A stretch of 33,457 nt of DNA, taken from an uncultured Erysipelotrichaceae bacterium. GTDB lineage: Bacteria; Bacillota_I; Bacilli_A; Erysipelotrichales; Erysipelotrichaceae. The position numbers were made by a program, and so were the translations under genes. Numbering within the stretch: position 1 is the first letter of the stretch; each line of letters begins with the position of its first letter. This document shows positions 2,987 through 21,153 of the stretch, one piece after another. Where the stretch lies: assembly GCA_947167125.1 (NCBI GenBank), contig CAMVGT010000029.1:1-33457 (forward strand), in the 5' to 3' direction. A model generated the notes under the pieces. It saw nothing but the letters and a program-made list of their open reading frames with translations, did not search any database and was not told the DNA's origin.

Positions 2987-5900
2987 ATGCCTGTGAAGAT
3001 TACAAGCTATGCAATGCTGGACAGCGAAAAGGAAAAGAAGAAAACCCGCAAGGTTTTTGTGGACCGTGATGAAGCGATTGCATTCTTTGAAAAAGCACTG
3101 AATGCAGTAAAAGCAGATCCGGAAGCTGCTGATATCATCTATTTCTGGGGTGTGGGAGGAATCGGAAAATCCCATCTGATCAACCATCTCTTCAGGGAAA
3201 CCGGATATAATGCACAGACTTATGAAATGATCGATCATAAGGAAAGCCTTCTGATGAGGGACCAGTTCCGTGTCCGGTATAATCTGGATCTTTCCACCAA
3301 TGAGATCGAGATTCTTTTCAGTTTAAGAAGCAAGCTGAAAGAAGAAGTGAAGCATCGATGTCAGAAGGATTTTGACTTCTGGCTGTTTGATTATGCTTTA
3401 TTGAAATATGAAGAGAAAAGCGGAACCGAACATAAGACAAATGACAATTCCAATACAGACCGTTCATCCGGGATTATTGATCTTCTTGTTTCAGAAGCAG
3501 GCATGATCAGCGGCAAATACAATCTGTTTGATCTTGGTTCAGAACTCTCATTCATCACAAACCCGATCAATCTGGCAGTTGCAGGCTATAAGGCTTTATT
3601 CAAGAAGCTGCAGATGGAGCAGTATAAATCATTCATTGAATCTCTTGATTATCACAATTCCGAAGAGATTTTAAGACAGCTCCATGTTGCTTTCAGTATG
3701 GATGTATTAAGACTGCAGCAGATGCTGAACAAAACCGGGTTCAGAACACTGCCGTTTATCATTGCGATTGATACGGTTGAACGCTTCTTTTACAGAACGC
3801 CGGATCATACCAACAATCCGGAATATGATGTTTCCTGGCTGTTTTCAAAACCCGGTTCAAACAGTGCACACGGACTTCTTTATTCCCTTCCGTCCGTGAT
3901 CTGGGTATTGTGCGGAAGAGATCATCTTTCAGATGAATATCTCGATGAAGAATATCAGTTCCAGCTGGAACGTCTGGATCAGGAACATGTCAAAGAAGTC
4001 ATGGACGCAAGGAAGATTCATGCGTCAGATGAAATTGTTTCAGCGGTTAATGAGGTAACTGAAGGTGTTCCTGCATATCTTGATATCTGTGCGGAGCTCT
4101 GCATTGAAAAAGAAGATTCCGTCACAAAAGAGGATTTTGAAGGAGGCATCAGCCGGATTGCCGGAAGATATATGCAATTGATGTCGGATACGGACAAGGA
4201 AAATCTGCATCTGATGACCAGCCTTGGGCAATGGATTGATGAAGACTTCATTGCCATCTCCGATCTGCTCGGCAGCTTCCGGGGGCTTCAGCAAAGCTAT
4301 AACAGACTGATTCAGAAATCCTTTATTCAGTCCGAAGCAGGAAAAAGAAGAATCTTCCATAACATTGTCCGTGAAGCCTTCTATACCGATCCGGATTATT
4401 CGGCTTATTCCAAAACAAAGAATTATGAAACGATTGTTTCTTATTATCTTTCAAAACTGGAGAACCCTTCCCTTTCGGATGAAGACATTCTTTATTACAC
4501 AGACCGTGTCATATTCCTGCTGAATGACATTGTAAATAACAGGGATATGTATGAAGTCATCAAACCTTTGATTAAACATTGCAGAAACAGACTGCAGTCA
4601 GCGGATCTGCAGAAATGCATTGCCATGTATGCAATGATTGACCGCAACCGCAGTCAATATGGATGGAATGAAGAAGAGGCCATCGCTTTTGAAAATGAAT
4701 ACGGATCTGTATTGATGAACAGCGGCTATACAAAGAAAGCAGTGGATTATTATGACCGTTTATACCGGTCACGGACCGGTAAATACGGCAGAAATGCCCC
4801 GGAAACCCTCGATGCTTTATTTCAGCTGACTGTGATGTATAGGACAGAAGGCAGAATCGATGAGGCTTATGCTGTCCTCCCGCACATCCACAAACAGTAT
4901 GTTAAGCAGTATGGCGAAGAAGATCCAAGGACATTGGAAGTTCTTTCCGCTTATGCGGATATAAATGAAATGTTCCATGGACCGGGAGCTTCAGTAAACA
5001 TCTATCAGGAGATTCTTGAAAATTACTGCAGACTGTATGGAGCATCTGATCACAGAAGCGAAGAAACTTTACTGAAGCTGATCAGATCCATGCGCAGAAT
5101 GAACGATGACGGGGAGTATTCACGCATCGAAATAAGCATTACGGACAGTTCTTCCGGCAGGGATGATTCAGAAAGCAGCCGTGATCGGAATCTTCGCTTC
5201 GGACGTATGCATCAGGCCGCCGGAAACCCGGATCAGGCATTGGCATATTTCCAAAAAGCATTGGAAGAAGGTGCAGACGAAGAAGCTTTAAACGGTATGG
5301 GATTATGTCTTTATGAGTGTCAGCGCTTTGAAGATGCATATCCCCTCCTGACACAGCTTCATCAATACAATGTACAGAACTATGGTGAGAGTGATCAGAG
5401 AACCGTGACCAATCTGAAACGATTGGCTGATGTGTGCATGAAAACCGGACGTGCTGAAGAAGCACGGAAACGTTATTCATATCTTTATTCAAGAAATCTC
5501 ACTGTACTCGGTGAAGAACATGAAGAAACCCGGTTTGTACTGGGAAGACTTGCGGAGATGAATTATGAACTGGGCAATGATCATGAAGCACTCAAACAGT
5601 ATCTGAAATGGTCTGAACTGGATGTGAAAACAGATTCTTTTTACAGCCTTTCCTATTCGCCTGTTTCTGAAATGCTGATCAGGAAATGGAAAAGATTTCT
5701 TCCTTATGAAGAAGGCGCAGCATTCTACCGTGCCTACTTCAAAGAAAAAAGCGAACCCACATCATCTGATCTCAGCGACTTTGGCTTCAGATCAGTCGCC
5801 CCGGATTTCACGGATACGTTTGACGATGAAGGAATGATCGAATCATGCCAAAGAACATTCCAAAAAATGCTGAAGAAAAAAGGAATCAGTCATCCTGACA

Positions 5901-6517
5901 CTCTGAAGGCTCTTAAACAGCTTGCTCATTCTTATTACGAAGCAAATGACTATACCGAAGCAATCCGCACTTATCAGCAGCTGTGCAGCCAATATGACCG
6001 CAATCCCGCAGAATACAATTCAGACAAATCAGGAGTCCTGGAAAAGATTGCTCATTGCTATGAGCTGAAAAAAGACTATGAAAAGGCTCTTGAGATTCTT
6101 CTGGATCTCTGTGAACAGCGAAAGGATGAAGGGATCAAAGACCGGGATACGATTATGAGACTGCATAAGACCGGCGATCTTCTTTATAAATCCGGCCGCT
6201 TCCCTGAAGCATTGGAAATATGCCGCAAAGCATATCCGATGGCTTTGGAGCTATTGGGAGAAGATGATGATGAAACCCTCGATCTTCGTCTGGATACTGC
6301 ATATGCATTATTCAGACTTCAGCAATATCCCGAAGCTTTGGAAATCTTTAAAGAGCTTTATAAAACGCGTATACGGATCAATGGCGAAACAGATTATCAG
6401 ACAATACAGTGTCTTGAAGAAATCGCATTTACCTATGCGGCCATGGATGATCTGGAAAATGCGTTAATTGTACAGAACAGATATTTCGATCTGTACAATG
6501 AGAATTATCATCTCTGA
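2987..6517 (+). CDS. STAND-family NTPase with C-terminal TPR array
   Basis: 1176 residues; start ATG preceded by GAGG 7 nt upstream. The P-loop is GVGGIGKS (residues 55-62). A Walker B-like strand FIIAID (257-262) is followed by E265, and WVLCGRD (306-312) sits where STAND/AAA proteins carry a sensor strand. From about residue 550 to the end the protein is helical repeats with motifs such as YGxxxPxTLxxLxxLAxxY, the kinesin-light-chain type of TPR. STAND proteins are ligand-sensing switches in which the C-terminal repeats bind a trigger and the NTPase oligomerises. Here the P-loop begins near the N-terminus, so no nuclease, TIR, protease or HTH effector precedes it. It could be a defence or regulatory switch acting through a partner. 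A decayed AbiE locus follows directly. NTPase and TPR calls are firm; the role is open. Confidence 0.85.
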   Translation: MPVKITSYAMLDSEKEKKKTRKVFVDRDEAIAFFEKALNAVKADPEAADIIYFWGVGGIGKSHLINHLFRETGYNAQTYEMIDHKESLLMRDQFRVRYNLDLSTNEIEILFSLRSKLKEEVKHRCQKDFDFWLFDYALLKYEEKSGTEHKTNDNSNTDRSSGIIDLLVSEAGMISGKYNLFDLGSELSFITNPINLAVAGYKALFKKLQMEQYKSFIESLDYHNSEEILRQLHVAFSMDVLRLQQMLNKTGFRTLPFIIAIDTVERFFYRTPDHTNNPEYDVSWLFSKPGSNSAHGLLYSLPSVIWVLCGRDHLSDEYLDEEYQFQLERLDQEHVKEVMDARKIHASDEIVSAVNEVTEGVPAYLDICAELCIEKEDSVTKEDFEGGISRIAGRYMQLMSDTDKENLHLMTSLGQWIDEDFIAISDLLGSFRGLQQSYNRLIQKSFIQSEAGKRRIFHNIVREAFYTDPDYSAYSKTKNYETIVSYYLSKLENPSLSDEDILYYTDRVIFLLNDIVNNRDMYEVIKPLIKHCRNRLQSADLQKCIAMYAMIDRNRSQYGWNEEEAIAFENEYGSVLMNSGYTKKAVDYYDRLYRSRTGKYGRNAPETLDALFQLTVMYRTEGRIDEAYAVLPHIHKQYVKQYGEEDPRTLEVLSAYADINEMFHGPGASVNIYQEILENYCRLYGASDHRSEETLLKLIRSMRRMNDDGEYSRIEISITDSSSGRDDSESSRDRNLRFGRMHQAAGNPDQALAYFQKALEEGADEEALNGMGLCLYECQRFEDAYPLLTQLHQYNVQNYGESDQRTVTNLKRLADVCMKTGRAEEARKRYSYLYSRNLTVLGEEHEETRFVLGRLAEMNYELGNDHEALKQYLKWSELDVKTDSFYSLSYSPVSEMLIRKWKRFLPYEEGAAFYRAYFKEKSEPTSSDLSDFGFRSVAPDFTDTFDDEGMIESCQRTFQKMLKKKGISHPDTLKALKQLAHSYYEANDYTEAIRTYQQLCSQYDRNPAEYNSDKSGVLEKIAHCYELKKDYEKALEILLDLCEQRKDEGIKDRDTIMRLHKTGDLLYKSGRFPEALEICRKAYPMALELLGEDDDETLDLRLDTAYALFRLQQYPEALEIFKELYKTRIRINGETDYQTIQCLEEIAFTYAAMDDLENALIVQNRYFDLYNENYHL

Positions 6518-10608: not shown

Positions 10609-10944
10609 TTAATTAAGATACAGTCTGATTTCTTCTTCCGTTATCTCAAATGCAGCAATCGCGTCGTCCAGTGAAAGCTTCCCGTTTCTGATCAGTTCTG
10701 CAATCCCTGCCAGCGTTTTGTGATTCATTGATTTCTGTGCTTCCGCAAGCTCTGCCTGAAGCTTTGCCTGTTTCTCTTCAGCCTCTGCCTGAAGCTTTGC
10801 CTGTTTCTCTTCAGCCTCTGCCTGAAGCTTTGCCAGAGTATCGTTAACAGCTTCCTGGACAAGTCCTTCGAGGAGATCTTCCATGTCCTGCACCGCCTTT
10901 CTTTCATCTTCATCCAAATGCAAGCCATAGGTATTTGTCAACAC
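10609..10944 (-). CDS. Rpn-like C-terminal tail protein, probably 5'-truncated
   Basis: 111 residues from GTG at 10942-10944, with no convincing ribosome site. The same frame stays coding-like upstream (KLLKKTEVLTNTYG) to an in-frame TGA at 10966-10968, and an ATG in a shifted frame sits at 10967-10969. A frameshifted or truncated 5' end is therefore likely. The product is all helical: an acidic segment, a coiled coil made of a repeated KLQAEAEEKQA unit, then LAGIAELIRNGKLSLDDAIA...ITEEEI. That end resembles the C-terminal regulatory tail of Rpn-family (PD-(D/E)XK) nucleases. The nuclease domain is absent. It is close to a full-length Rpn gene and its duplicate tail, so it may be a third Rpn-derived small protein or a relic. 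Family assignment is moderate. Confidence 0.5.
   Translation of the reverse strand: MLTNTYGLHLDEDERKAVQDMEDLLEGLVQEAVNDTLAKLQAEAEEKQAKLQAEAEEKQAKLQAELAEAQKSMNHKTLAGIAELIRNGKLSLDDAIAAFEITEEEIRLYLN
10750..10834. repeat. 33-bp in-frame tandem repeat, about 2.6 copies
   Basis: Units start at 10750, 10783 and 10816. The first two are identical and the third is partial (19 bp). The period is a multiple of 3, so each copy adds 11 residues (KLQAEAEEKQA) to a coiled coil. It is a site of likely copy-number variation between strains. Confidence 0.9.
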
Positions 10945-11060: not shown

Positions 11061-11510
11061 TCAAAGTTCCGGTTCCCTGTCAAGCAGGCTGAGCTGTCCC
11101 TGTCTCATCTCCCAGAAATGACCGCATTCTCTGCAGCGGTAGATGACAACAGCCTGAGATGGAGAGAAAAAGTTGGCGCTGAGGGTAGCCCAGAACTGAC
11201 GCGATGTTCTTTCTCTGTCTCCGTTGTGGCAGTGCGGGCATTCGTAGAGAACGTTATGATCACTGACCCATTCATACCAGCCGCCGGAAACCTGATTCAG
11301 TTCATCATTATCAAGTACGATGGGGCTCTCGCTGAAATCTACGCCGCTGTTCTTAACCTTCGCTTCAATTGCTTCAACATCAATGCCGTTATCCGCAAGG
11401 ATTTTGCAGAATTCGACATCACTCACTACACCTTTGAGCTTTTCAAGAACTTCTTCCGGCAGCATGTCACGCACTTCCTTTAACAGCTGAGTATACTTCT
11501 CATTATTCAT
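11061..11510 (-). CDS. Double-glycine leader-like protein with C-terminal zinc ribbon
   Basis: 149 residues; AGGAGG lies 8 nt before ATG at 11508-11510, which fixes the start. Residues 1-77 look like a RiPP or bacteriocin leader: helical and acidic, somewhat like Nif11-type leaders, ending LDNDELNQVSGG with the GG at 76-77. In known systems a C39-peptidase ABC transporter cuts after such a GG. The remaining 72 residues hold CPHC (91-94) and CREC (126-129), a four-cysteine zinc-ribbon arrangement, with several Trp/Phe. The ribbon is unlike a usual bacteriocin core, so it may be a non-exported protein with a leader-like domain. No transporter, protease or modification enzyme is seen nearby. It sits between Rpn-derived genes. 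Function unknown. Confidence 0.75.
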   Translation of the reverse strand: MNNEKYTQLLKEVRDMLPEEVLEKLKGVVSDVEFCKILADNGIDVEAIEAKVKNSGVDFSESPIVLDNDELNQVSGGWYEWVSDHNVLYECPHCHNGDRERTSRQFWATLSANFFSPSQAVVIYRCRECGHFWEMRQGQLSLLDREPEL

Positions 11511-11683
11511 TATGATTTCCTCCTTTGTCATCGACAGTTTTCTTTTAAACTGAATCAGTTGGAAATAAATATTAATATCAATCTGACTGAACATAAAATA
11601 CAGTGCCGGAATCAAACAATGAATAATGAGACCGTTAAATGGCCAAGAAATACAGAGACAGATTTATTTCATGTGACCGTTAA

Positions 11684-11713
11684 GAAAAAAGAATGCAGCC
11701 GAAACTGCATCCT
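11684..11713 (-). terminator. Intrinsic terminator of the rpn operon
   Basis: On the minus strand AGGATGCAG pairs with CTGCATTCT (11705-11713 with 11690-11698; one G-T pair), followed by TTTTTT. It lies 85 bp past the small Rpn-tail gene and separates the Rpn pair from the double-glycine gene. The rest of the gap 11511-11797 shows no gene. Confidence 0.82.
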
Positions 11714-11797
11714 TAACGATCTGAAACATGATATTCAGATGTGTCACTCCACAGAACTGTTCTGCTCTTCTTACACCGGGCTCAATGCATCTGAAGA

Positions 11798-12019
11798 TCA
11801 GCACTGCTTCAGTCCGATGATATCCCTGACTTCTTCCCGCTCCATTCTGTACATTTCACAGATTGTTGAAACAGCATCTTCTTCACTGTCTCCGCGTTTC
11901 TTCAGCATTTCAAAATACCGAACAATCGAATGTTCTCTTTCTTCTCTGCGGCCTTCTTCTCTTCCTTTTTCACGGATATAGGCAAGATGCCTCTCTTCAT
12001 TGTATTCAAATATGCTCAT
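11798..12019 (-). CDS. Stand-alone duplicate of the Rpn C-terminal domain (RpnS-like)
   Basis: 73 residues beginning MSIFEYNEERHLAYIREKG. It is a near-identical copy of the last 76 residues of the upstream Rpn protein, which begin MSVFEYNEERHLAYIREKG, minus one GREE-type repeat and with a diverged last dozen residues. It starts 2 bp after the Rpn stop codon. GAGG sits exactly 8 nt before the ATG, and its bases lie within the last codons of rpn, so translation is probably coupled. In studied enterobacterial Rpn systems an internal start makes a small C-terminal protein (RpnS) that blocks the nuclease. This gene has the size and content of such an antitoxin but as a separate cistron. High DNA identity indicates a recent duplication. 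Confidence 0.78.
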   Translation of the reverse strand: MSIFEYNEERHLAYIREKGREEGRREEREHSIVRYFEMLKKRGDSEEDAVSTICEMYRMEREEVRDIIGLKQC

Positions 12020-12254
12020 GTTTACTGCCTCGGGAAAAGAAGTCCTCTGACATCTTCCGGCTCCATTCCGTACATTTCACAGATCGTTGAAACAGCGTCT
12101 TCTTCACTGTCTCCGCGTTTCTTCAGCATTTCAAAAAACCGAACAATCGAATGTTCTCTTTCTTCTTTGCGGCCTTCTTCTCGGCCTTCTTCTCTTCCTT
12201 TTTCACGGATATAGGCAAGATGCCTTTCTTCATTGTATTCAAATACGCTCATAT
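11815..12254. repeat. Tandem duplication of the rpn 3' end (two copies of about 205-215 bp)
   Basis: About 11815-12019 and 12037-12254 are near-identical, differing by scattered substitutions and one 12-bp unit present twice in the second copy (12175-12198) and once in the first. Both copies begin at the ATG of the C-terminal domain. It is a direct tandem duplication, open to deletion by recombination. Confidence 0.88.
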
Positions 12255-13068
12255 CCACGACCTCGCTTCTGTTTTCAAGAATAAAGTTCCTGATTGTGAA
12301 GTCTTCCGGCATTTCCTCTATTGCCTGATTGACTGCTGATGTAATGCCGGTTTCTTTACTGTATTTACGGACTGTTTCAACAAACCATTCATATTCATAA
12401 AGCTGTACACAATACTGACTGTCTTCTTTTTTCAGTCCGTTGATATTGTGCTGCGTCACAATCAGTTCAAGGGATGGGTTCCTGTCTTTATTGTAACCCG
12501 AAGCGTTTTTGTGAAACAGGTCTGACAGTCTCAGTTCTTCAATTTTTTCAGCTTTGTCCGTCCCGTTGTAAATGACATGGAAACTGGGTACCGGAAGTTC
12601 GATCGGCTCGTTTCTGTAGATATCCTTCTGCTGTACTTCAAGAATCTGATTCATGGTTGAATGCCAGTATCCCAGGAAACGGTAAGGCATATTCGGATTC
12701 AATGTGGACTGATGTTCATAAAAGCTCATATTCCATGAACCTACCAGTACACTGACATCATTCTTCATATGCATGTAGATCGCATTGTCCAGTGTCACAA
12801 TCTGAAGATCATTGACATCGGTGTAATCTGTATGCTCGATGGAATTGTAAAGTGCCAGTGTCCATTCTTTGTGTTTCTCATTTCCGAAGATAAACCGGAA
12901 TAATCTGTCTTTGATGTTCCTGTCGGCTTTTGTGCCGTAGGAAGATTTTCCAGAGATCAGTTTTTCTGTTCCGTCGCTGTAACGGACCAATGTACCTGCT
13001 TTCGCATCAGCTTCTGTGTAAAGGGAAATCATTTCAATGACGGAAGAATCTTTATGCTTTTTATTCAT
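12022..13068 (-). CDS. Rpn family PD-(D/E)XK nuclease (recombination-promoting nuclease / putative transposase)
   Basis: 348 residues from ATG at 13066-13068 (MNKKHKDSS), with AAAGGA about 10 nt upstream. An alternative ATG lies 9 bp earlier. The Rpn nuclease core is clear: DRLFRFIFGN (54-63), then MKNDVSVLVG with D104, and SFYEHQSTLNPNMPYRFLGY with E118 and Q120, the D...ExQ active site of this PD-(D/E)XK family. The C-terminal tail starts at an internal ATG (MSVFEYNEERH, 12250-12252) that has its own GAGG 8 nt upstream, followed by a charged GREEGREEGRKEE stretch. Related proteins are DNA endonucleases tied to recA-independent recombination and phage defence. A 12-bp unit encoding GREE is duplicated here compared with the stand-alone copy. 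The next gene is that duplicate tail. Confidence 0.87.
   Translation of the reverse strand: MNKKHKDSSVIEMISLYTEADAKAGTLVRYSDGTEKLISGKSSYGTKADRNIKDRLFRFIFGNEKHKEWTLALYNSIEHTDYTDVNDLQIVTLDNAIYMHMKNDVSVLVGSWNMSFYEHQSTLNPNMPYRFLGYWHSTMNQILEVQQKDIYRNEPIELPVPSFHVIYNGTDKAEKIEELRLSDLFHKNASGYNKDRNPSLELIVTQHNINGLKKEDSQYCVQLYEYEWFVETVRKYSKETGITSAVNQAIEEMPEDFTIRNFILENRSEVVDMSVFEYNEERHLAYIREKGREEGREEGRKEEREHSIVRFFEMLKKRGDSEEDAVSTICEMYGMEPEDVRGLLFPRQ
12250..12264 (-). promoter_or_regulatory. Candidate internal translation start inside rpn
   Basis: GAGG (12261-12264) stands 8 nt before an in-frame ATG (12250-12252). Initiation here would make a 76-residue C-terminal protein. The duplicated gene downstream has the same GAGG-N8-ATG geometry (12028-12031 and 12017-12019), although the bases between differ. 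This suggests that the internal start is functional. Confidence 0.55.
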
Positions 13069-13220
13069 ATCCTGCATTTCCTTTCTGTACGATGTATTCA
13101 CCTGAAAGATGCAGATTCCACGGAATTTCTTTATACTTTTTCTCCGTTTTTTCTTTTTGCGCATCCATTGATCGCATGATCCTGCACAGAATATCCCGCT
13201 GAAAGATCCGTCATAATCTT

Positions 13221-13248
13221 TTTACCGTGATGAAAGATGCGGTATAAT
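13221..13248 (+). promoter_or_regulatory. Promoter of the merR-like gene at 13271
   Basis: TTTACC (13221-13226), a 16-bp spacer and a perfect TATAAT (13243-13248), 22 bp before the start codon. The outer bases ACCG...CGGT around the spacer are complementary, a weak hint of an operator. Confidence 0.65.
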
Positions 13249-13270
13249 CTGAAACGGATGGCAAAAGACA

Positions 13271-14068
13271 ATGAAATATACAATCGGCGACGTATCTGAG
13301 GCATTGAATCTTTCACGCGAAATGATCCGCTATTATGAAAAGAACGGGGTACTGAAGCTTTCAAGAGATTCTTCAAACAACTACAGAACCTATGAGATCA
13401 TGGATATCTTCTGGCTTCTTGAATCCCTGCAGTACCGCTCATGGGGTGTGGGAATCAAGGAAATCCAGAATGTGCGCGGTGAAGATTTCCATCTGAAGAC
13501 TGCGGATCTGTTCAGTCAGTATGCAGAAGAACTGGAAAAGGAAATCCTGACCAAAACACTGCTGAAAGAAAGACTGGAGAAGATCTCTGTCAAAATGCGC
13601 AGCAGCTTCTACAATCTCGGCAATATCCATGTGGAATACATCCCCTCTTACTATTCCTTCCATCTTGTGAACGGGTATGGCGATGAATATGAAAGAATAA
13701 ATGTCAGGAAAGAAATCCGCGATGTTTTTTTCGCATCTGAGAACATCGGCTTTCTGGACAGCGGCATCCTCATCGGCGACGACTGTCAGGAATGGATCAT
13801 GACAATTGATGAGAAATATCTGAACGCCCTGCATATACCGGCTGCGGAAGGAATGACATATGAAGAAGGCGGATTCTTCCTGTGCATGAATTCCGACATC
13901 GGCGAAATCGGAAAGATGGATCTGAGCGAAGGGAAAAAGCTTCAGACCTATGCAGATGAAAAAGGATTCCGGACAGACGGAAGGCTGCGGGGAGTTCTGA
14001 TCGGCAGAGGCGAAGTGAACGGTACTTTCCGGCGCATCATGGAAATGCGGATGAAGATCATCGCATAA
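13271..14068 (+). CDS. MerR family transcriptional regulator
   Basis: 265 residues. The N-terminal winged helix is typical of MerR: YTIGDVSEALNLSREMIRYYEKNGVL (3-28), then a wing with NNYRTYE and a second helix pair to about residue 70. A coiled coil follows (about 75-110), then a domain of roughly 150 residues that could be a GyrI-like or other ligand-binding fold; its ligand cannot be read. The start codon has only a weak ribosome site but follows a perfect -10 box. A terminator closes the gene. The next gene is an OYE reductase whose promoter has the 19-bp spacer and central dyad expected of a MerR target, so this protein probably activates that gene when its ligand is bound. Confidence 0.88.
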   Translation: MKYTIGDVSEALNLSREMIRYYEKNGVLKLSRDSSNNYRTYEIMDIFWLLESLQYRSWGVGIKEIQNVRGEDFHLKTADLFSQYAEELEKEILTKTLLKERLEKISVKMRSSFYNLGNIHVEYIPSYYSFHLVNGYGDEYERINVRKEIRDVFFASENIGFLDSGILIGDDCQEWIMTIDEKYLNALHIPAAEGMTYEEGGFFLCMNSDIGEIGKMDLSEGKKLQTYADEKGFRTDGRLRGVLIGRGEVNGTFRRIMEMRMKIIA

Positions 14069-20865: not shown

Positions 20866-21153
20866 TTACAGTTCCCCTCTGTCAATCAGATCTTCAATCA
20901 TATCCACTGCATAAGGAACACCGTCTTTCCAGTACAGGTCATCTTCCTCATTGCCCCTTGCAGGTTCAAATCTGTATCCTTTTGACGCAAAGTATTCCTT
21001 CAGTTTTGCGATATCAATGAAATTGTCTTCCGGATCTCCGTCAGGGGCGAAAAAAACGAGTCCTTTGCCCAGCAGAGTCAGTGCGATGGATACTGTGTCG
21101 GATGTCGTTCCGCCGGAAATGCTTTCAAGAACCTGATCATTGATCTTTTCCAT
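20866..21153 (-). CDS. Double-glycine-motif small protein, start probably frameshifted
   Basis: From ATG at 21151-21153 it is 95 residues beginning MEKINDQVLESISGG, a short double-glycine signal with GG at 14-15, then a hydrophobic stretch (VSIALTLLGKGLVFFAP) and an acidic C-terminal part. The coding pattern continues upstream in frame (KAEELKEKYGLSEGQ, 21154-21198), a natural leader start, until TAG at 21199-21201. The only good ribosome site, AAGGAG (21213-21218) before ATG at 21207-21209, is out of frame by one base and stops after 8 codons. One extra base would restore a leader of about 34 residues. It may be an inactivated gene, a sequencing error, or a short form. No C39 transporter is nearby. 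Confidence 0.62.
   Translation of the reverse strand: MEKINDQVLESISGGTTSDTVSIALTLLGKGLVFFAPDGDPEDNFIDIAKLKEYFASKGYRFEPARGNEEDDLYWKDGVPYAVDMIEDLIDRGEL

Follow-up and report, generated by a model that had tools for sequence, protein, structure and literature searches.

Why would a gene that may encode both a toxin and its antitoxin in the same codons be followed by a second, separate copy of the antitoxin part? The question is raised by a 33,457-nt stretch of DNA from an uncultured, probably gut-dwelling Erysipelotrichaceae bacterium (the window, hereafter), in which a candidate Rpn nuclease gene with a predicted internal start stands directly before a small cistron that repeats its 3' end (Table 1). 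Our preferred reading, to which we give a probability of roughly 0.45, is that of an Rpn gene-within-gene toxin-antitoxin locus with an extra module, kept mainly as an off-register antitoxin and as a donor of tails. In other words, the shifted fit of the separate near-copy behind rpn suggests that it may be there for other variants of the toxin and not for its own.

Table 1. Features of the rpn locus, in positions of the window.
Feature	Positions	Strand	Basis
rpn: candidate nuclease of the Rpn family (PD-(D/E)XK type), 348 aa, possible toxin (RpnL)	12022..13068	-	profile matches, conserved residues, model
Internal Shine-Dalgarno GAGG, 8 nt ahead of the internal ATG	12261..12264	-	sequence; Glu codon GAG in relatives
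Module U1 within rpn: predicted internally started RpnS, 76 aa	12022..12252	-	Met conservation, helix prediction
Four-residue repeat zone of U1 (61-nt spacer, leader to tail)	12136..12196	-	sequence comparison
Shine-Dalgarno GAGG of the downstream cistron, within the last rpn codons	12028..12031	-	sequence
Module U2: rpnS-like cistron standing alone, 73 aa, shorter than U1 by one 4-aa repeat	11798..12019	-	ORF, alignment, model
Four-residue repeat zone of U2 (49-nt spacer)	11915..11963	-	sequence comparison
Intrinsic-terminator-like hairpin, 11 pairs, T-rich tail, past the small cistron	11689..11714	-	terminator scan

As judged by computation, the window appears to encode a distant Rpn nuclease, whose role as a toxin is putative. 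The NCBIfam model TIGR01784 matches the gene at E 7e-7 with 29.3 bits, short of the 52.1 set as its curated cutoff, and is matched by 29 of 44 relatives at E <= 0.001; PF04754 reaches E 0.09. A profile of 44 relatives aligned with hhalign to E. coli RpnC at E 1.1e-5 and to RpnE at 5.5e-4, over 63-65 columns around ExQ. Residues D104, E118 and Q120, which we take by analogy to be the catalytic residues of a PD-(D/E)XK-type site, are kept in 154, 154 and 153 of 155 rpn genes, and an AlphaFold2 model of the protein (mean pLDDT 82) shapes the module region as a long helix (280-317) plus two helices. Neither rpn nor the small ORF had a match at E <= 1 in PADLOC-DB 2.0.0 (2023), a library that may hold no Rpn model. 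We favour the start at 13068 over an in-frame ATG upstream at 13164, because similarity to the rpn start on contig C86 ends at about 13119, short of that ATG. At its end, contig C86 carries the opening 54 nt of a near-identical rpn that differs by one base from the second rpn of this genome, on contig C127; this piece is either one more rpn copy or sequence that precedes C127.

Inside rpn, the internal ATG that begins at 12252 appears to be a start in its own right. Its Met is kept in 143 of 155 distinct full-length rpn genes, a set of non-E. coli loci, the bulk of them from reconstructed genomes of animal-gut Bacillota, with exact duplicates taken out and close relatives left in. The Glu codon of the Shine-Dalgarno, four residues before this Met, reads GAG in 138 of the 139 genes with both residues, against 33% of the other Glu codons (1345/4131; p 5e-64) and 20-45% in the five further columns where Glu occurs 100 times or more. 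The base preceding it is G in 120 of the 139 genes, and the Ala just before it is written GCG in 94 of 104 cases versus 917 of 2886 elsewhere. The resulting DNA reads GGAGGT at a suitable distance from the internal ATG, a spelling that comes from the choice of codons and bases ahead of the internal Met and is not required by the protein alone. Selection on the internal start of rpn looks real, and codon usage in the relatives points to strong selection of the Shine-Dalgarno itself. An internal antitoxin start of the kind known from RpnL/RpnS systems appears nearly universal in the rpn genes sampled, marked by the near-absolute use of one Glu codon.

The small cistron behind rpn has, for first codon, the counterpart of the internal Met, and 60 of 72 residues are identical between U2 and U1, with one gap of four residues. 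At the nucleotide level, leader (54/56) and tail (89/105) are largely identical, and the U2 spacer is 12 nt shorter. The GAGG of U2 was not copied from that of U1: it is formed by the end of rpn, CCG AGG CAG TAA (stop codon at 12024-12022), and the same Shine-Dalgarno sequence stands ahead of both downstream copies on contig C127. Since U2 starts 2 nt past the rpn stop, it is probably translated from the rpn mRNA. The protein is predicted to form three helices (8-42, 46-57 and 61-72; mean pLDDT 78), and a profile of the module matches the RpnA small-form structure 7th0 weakly (E 0.58). Past U2, the hairpin in Table 1 is the longest of four terminator-like sites in 11500-13400 on both strands, where 1.0 would be expected. 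The initial annotation had described an Rpn nuclease with an internal ATG, a near-copy of its 3' end beginning at that Met, a GAGG 8 nt upstream of either ATG and a duplication into a separate gene. Our computations support the nuclease, both distances are exactly 8 nt (12264-12261 and 12031-12028), and the similarity of leader and tail makes U2 a true duplication, in a separate cistron of a recurring kind.

Such cistrons have been described before. In E. coli, RpnS made from internal starts blocks RpnL, and RpnS also exists as a separate gene, with second copies behind rpnE (ypaA) and rpnC that arose independently; these copies can be removed by deletion or fusion (Zhong et al., 2023, PMC10327210). 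The arrangement is therefore a known one in a new lineage, and not a new one as first proposed; what is new is an array with two tail types and the frequency of repeat mismatch. The locus shares with the E. coli systems of that study the layout of a nuclease gene inside which translation of a small antitoxin begins (predicted here, as are its three helices), and, with rpnE-ypaA and rpnC in particular, four-residue repeats in the first helix and a second copy of the module downstream; copy loss by deletion, or by fusion of the rpn body to the downstream module, is a further likeness. It differs from them in its distant sequence (hhalign E 1.1e-5 to RpnC) and its Erysipelotrichaceae genome, in a sister locus whose rpn is followed by two copies that differ in tail type, and in that the copy's Shine-Dalgarno is supplied by rpn's own end. 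A Gram-positive rpn, that of Clostridioides difficile, resembles ours in that a small form was made from it in E. coli from a predicted internal start, but no downstream copy is reported for it in the main text of the same work (Zhong et al., 2023, PMC10327210). K-12 RpnE was inactive in the assays of Kingston et al. (2017, PMC5350276), and RefSeq carries a pseudogene flag for K-12 ypaA and for 11 of 13 fetched E. coli copies downstream of rpnE.

Downstream copies recur in other genomes, which sets aside the concern, raised in the initial annotation, of a one-off duplication. The count of stand-alone C-terminal ORFs suggested there gave 26 cases among 144 rpn loci (window and sister locus counted in) where the gene's own C-terminal part is copied at most 1.5 kb downstream, compared with 8 of 361 other mechanical ORFs of at least 180 residues in the same loci (p 2.4e-9). 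These 144 are the 155 rpn genes minus 11 with less than 300 nt of downstream sequence, and one of the match listings behind them was sampled in part; in the genus searched, 29 of 70 genomes have an rpn match. A few of the 144 were included on account of a C-terminal match seen beforehand; in the set not chosen on copies, 11 of 71 loci have one (8 of 79 were left out as too short or near an edge, and L041 had been left out earlier). An upstream copy of the module was found at one rpn locus only, near a contig start, the mean sequence at hand being 920 nt upstream and 1428 nt downstream. The N-terminal part is copied downstream in 3 of 144 rpn, all within the whole-rpn head-to-tail arrays of genome G789 (L106, L255, L256 and L279), an amplification unlike the module copies. 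When five broken or cut copies are removed from the 31 matched (L083, L240 twice, L256 and the second of L237), 26 usable ones remain, from 23 loci. The residue aligned to the internal Met is Met in 25 of them, L129 being the exception and hence absent from the dN/dS and nearest-module counts given below, and a GAGG lies 7-11 nt ahead of the aligned Met in 20.

The copies and their parents seldom agree in the number of repeats. Differences in the repeat zone were taken from alignments, since end-to-end lengths include tail differences. Read in this way, the zone is unequal in 22 of 26 pairs, and the mismatch is a multiple of four residues in 20 of those 22, ranging from -28 to +24; the second copy of L050 has another tail and gives an ambiguous difference, and L277 differs by 7. 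Zero net length difference was found in four pairs (L042, L130, L254 and L258). In E. coli, rpnE and its downstream copy are unequal in 13 of 13 sampled pairs, K-12 ypaA having one repeat more (KLEG), and rpnC and its copy in seven of seven, by +8, -12, -10 or -14, the last two not being multiples of four. From 5,371 and 5,390 matching records, the E. coli strains were chosen by hand among evenly spaced rows so as to cover a variety; some share one length pair and are thus not independent, and L165, a partial rpnE, was left out of the count. Repeat mismatch is usual in the pairs checked, both here (22/26) and in the E. coli sample (20/20). Shuffling 12 E. coli rpnE pairs gave 0.9 equal pairs expected by chance versus 0 observed, so that parent length is not tracked and no active avoidance is shown. 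Within this genome, the spacers of the modules across both loci (61 nt in U1, 49 nt in U2, then 73, 37 and 37 nt) differ by multiples of 12 nt, the repeat variation of RpnL/RpnS systems, and neither the window nor the C127 locus holds a downstream copy with the spacer length of the other's rpn. The main text of Zhong et al. (2023, PMC10327210) holds no comparison of repeat numbers between parents and downstream copies.

This bears directly on the proposal of the initial annotation that the small cistron is a dedicated antitoxin, which would raise the antitoxin dose against its own nuclease. U2 is adjacent to rpn, intact and equipped with its own Shine-Dalgarno, of the 25 copies that have a Met in the aligned position, 22 have their own parent as nearest module (L256, a fragment of a broken rpn, being left out), the four pairs of equal net length would suit a cognate role, and a tagged product of the downstream rpnE copy has been detected (Zhong et al., 2023, PMC10327210). 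Against it stand the unequal repeat numbers of most pairs, U2 itself being one repeat short, and the published finding that one added repeat abolished RpnC inhibition unless both partners carried it (Zhong et al., 2023, PMC10327210). As stated, the proposal is unsupported, and we consider it unlikely. The mismatch and the one-repeat result with RpnC mean that an antitoxin dedicated to its own toxin is not the default, and that an off-register antitoxin doubling as a cassette donor fits better; such a register rule would extend, by analogy, the one published example, RpnC with one repeat added (PMC10327210).

In the off-register reading, the long form would be a PD-(D/E)XK nuclease that dimerises via its C-terminal helices, and the short form, consisting of these helices alone and started at the internal Met, would pair with the nuclease tail and keep the nuclease inactive. 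The downstream cistron would repeat the short form in tandem, under a ribosome-binding site of its own. We read U2 as off-register in view of its first helix, which is shorter than that of U1 by one four-residue repeat: U2 would be weak or inactive on its own parent nuclease and could neutralise Rpn variants of lower repeat number. As a donor, it would make the rpn tail changeable by recombination through the shared leader.

It could also be that repeat-rich 3' ends duplicate often and that the copies are tolerated without any role. Copies are indeed gained and lost between strains, with breakpoints that vary by locus, broken ones occur (L083, L240), the mismatch does not exceed that of shuffled pairs, and pN/pS of the window pair alone (U1/U2) is 0.45, close to the expectation for a decaying copy; the two pairs of contig C127 give 0.31 and 0.48, the latter for V2, one of its two copies. 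However, dN/dS between internal and downstream modules is 0.25 when pooled over 25 pairs, below the value of about 0.5 or more expected with one member free to decay, so that the copies look constrained as a group. The argument is stronger for the group than for the copy in the window, and gene conversion could lower dN/dS too. The frequency of the aligned Met and of the GAGG ahead of it, and the occurrence of downstream copies at 26 loci versus an upstream copy at one, likewise speak against mere tolerance, which we regard as quite unlikely. Part of this evidence also weighs against the off-register reading: repeats mutate fast, so the mismatch may be drift, four of 26 copies equal their parent in length and most are nearest to it, and the values for the window pair and for V2 approach that of a decaying copy. 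The same holds for the pseudogene flags on most rpnE copies, for the rpnC differences outside multiples of four and for the lack, in both loci of this genome, of a copy that matches the other rpn in spacer length.

The role of donor may have left traces in the second locus of this genome. On contig C127, a second rpn is followed by two copies, V2 and V3, of two tail types. The window rpn equals the C127 rpn over 692 nt ending 71 nt into the module, after which the tails differ (68/105); the tail of the window rpn agrees with V2 at 101 of 105 positions, and that of the C127 rpn with its own copy V3 at 98 of 105. From these alignments we conclude that tails have been exchanged between the two loci. 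Among the 26 rows, 23 are closest to their parent and three are closer to the module of another locus (V2, the L064 copy and the second L050 copy), the L064 copy having a length equal to that of the rpn module of L091, in a different genome. In E. coli strains without the downstream gene, its tail type sits on rpnE in six of six fetched; this single-copy state reflects either the loss of one copy or an ancestral single copy, and the direction is not settled. That the modules matter just as recombination templates for switching the rpn tail, a reading that partly overlaps our own and draws on the exchanged tails, the three rows nearer to a module elsewhere and the six E. coli strains, is improbable, as silent donors need no Shine-Dalgarno, yet most copies have one, and the E. 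coli change may have run in either direction. Two more Rpn-like genes were seen in the same genome: a complete one (L039, 2171-3037, minus strand), whose N-terminal part is different and which has a module of repeats and tail, and another visible just as a tail at a contig end (L040).

If the off-register reading is extended to all downstream rpnS copies, these could form a bank of antitoxins that share start and leader and carry another repeat number or tail, protecting against Rpn nucleases of other registers, from siblings or incoming genes, and recombinable into rpn. We put this forward tentatively, as a rather doubtful generalization. In such a bank, toxin and antitoxin, being encoded by the same codons, would switch jointly in a single step. 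If off-register, the copies would provide a natural example of a toxin and an antitoxin whose specificity changes in one recombination event while the two always match, and a few natural cassettes of a single genome could serve to tell off-register from dedicated antitoxins. Polymorphic toxins with orphan C-terminal cassettes and shufflon-type tail switching also place alternative C-terminal modules after a complete gene, and a common leader would allow recombination. The locus resembles these systems in having such modules and a leader that would permit recombination. It differs from them in two respects: the downstream modules are mostly open cistrons, with GAGG and ATG in 20 of 26 usable copies, where silent donors would lack a start, and the rpn module would be antitoxin and toxin tail at once.

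A few other genes of the window deserve mention. At 10609-10944 (minus strand), a small ORF with KLQAEAEEKQA repeats and the end LIRNGKLSLDDAIAAFEITEEEIRLYLN has an Rpn-type-like tail without a nuclease, its library matches being sub-cutoff only. At 2987-6517 (plus strand) lies the gene of a 1176-aa STAND-like protein with many TPR repeats and, by eye, a P-loop-like start (GVGGIGKS), which defence models match weakly. Two further ORFs on the minus strand encode bacteriocin-like peptides, one at 11061-11510 with sub-cutoff library matches only and the other at 20866-21153 with no Pfam match at E <= 0.01; they carry the leaders LNQVSGG and LESISGG, respectively, presumably of the double-glycine type.
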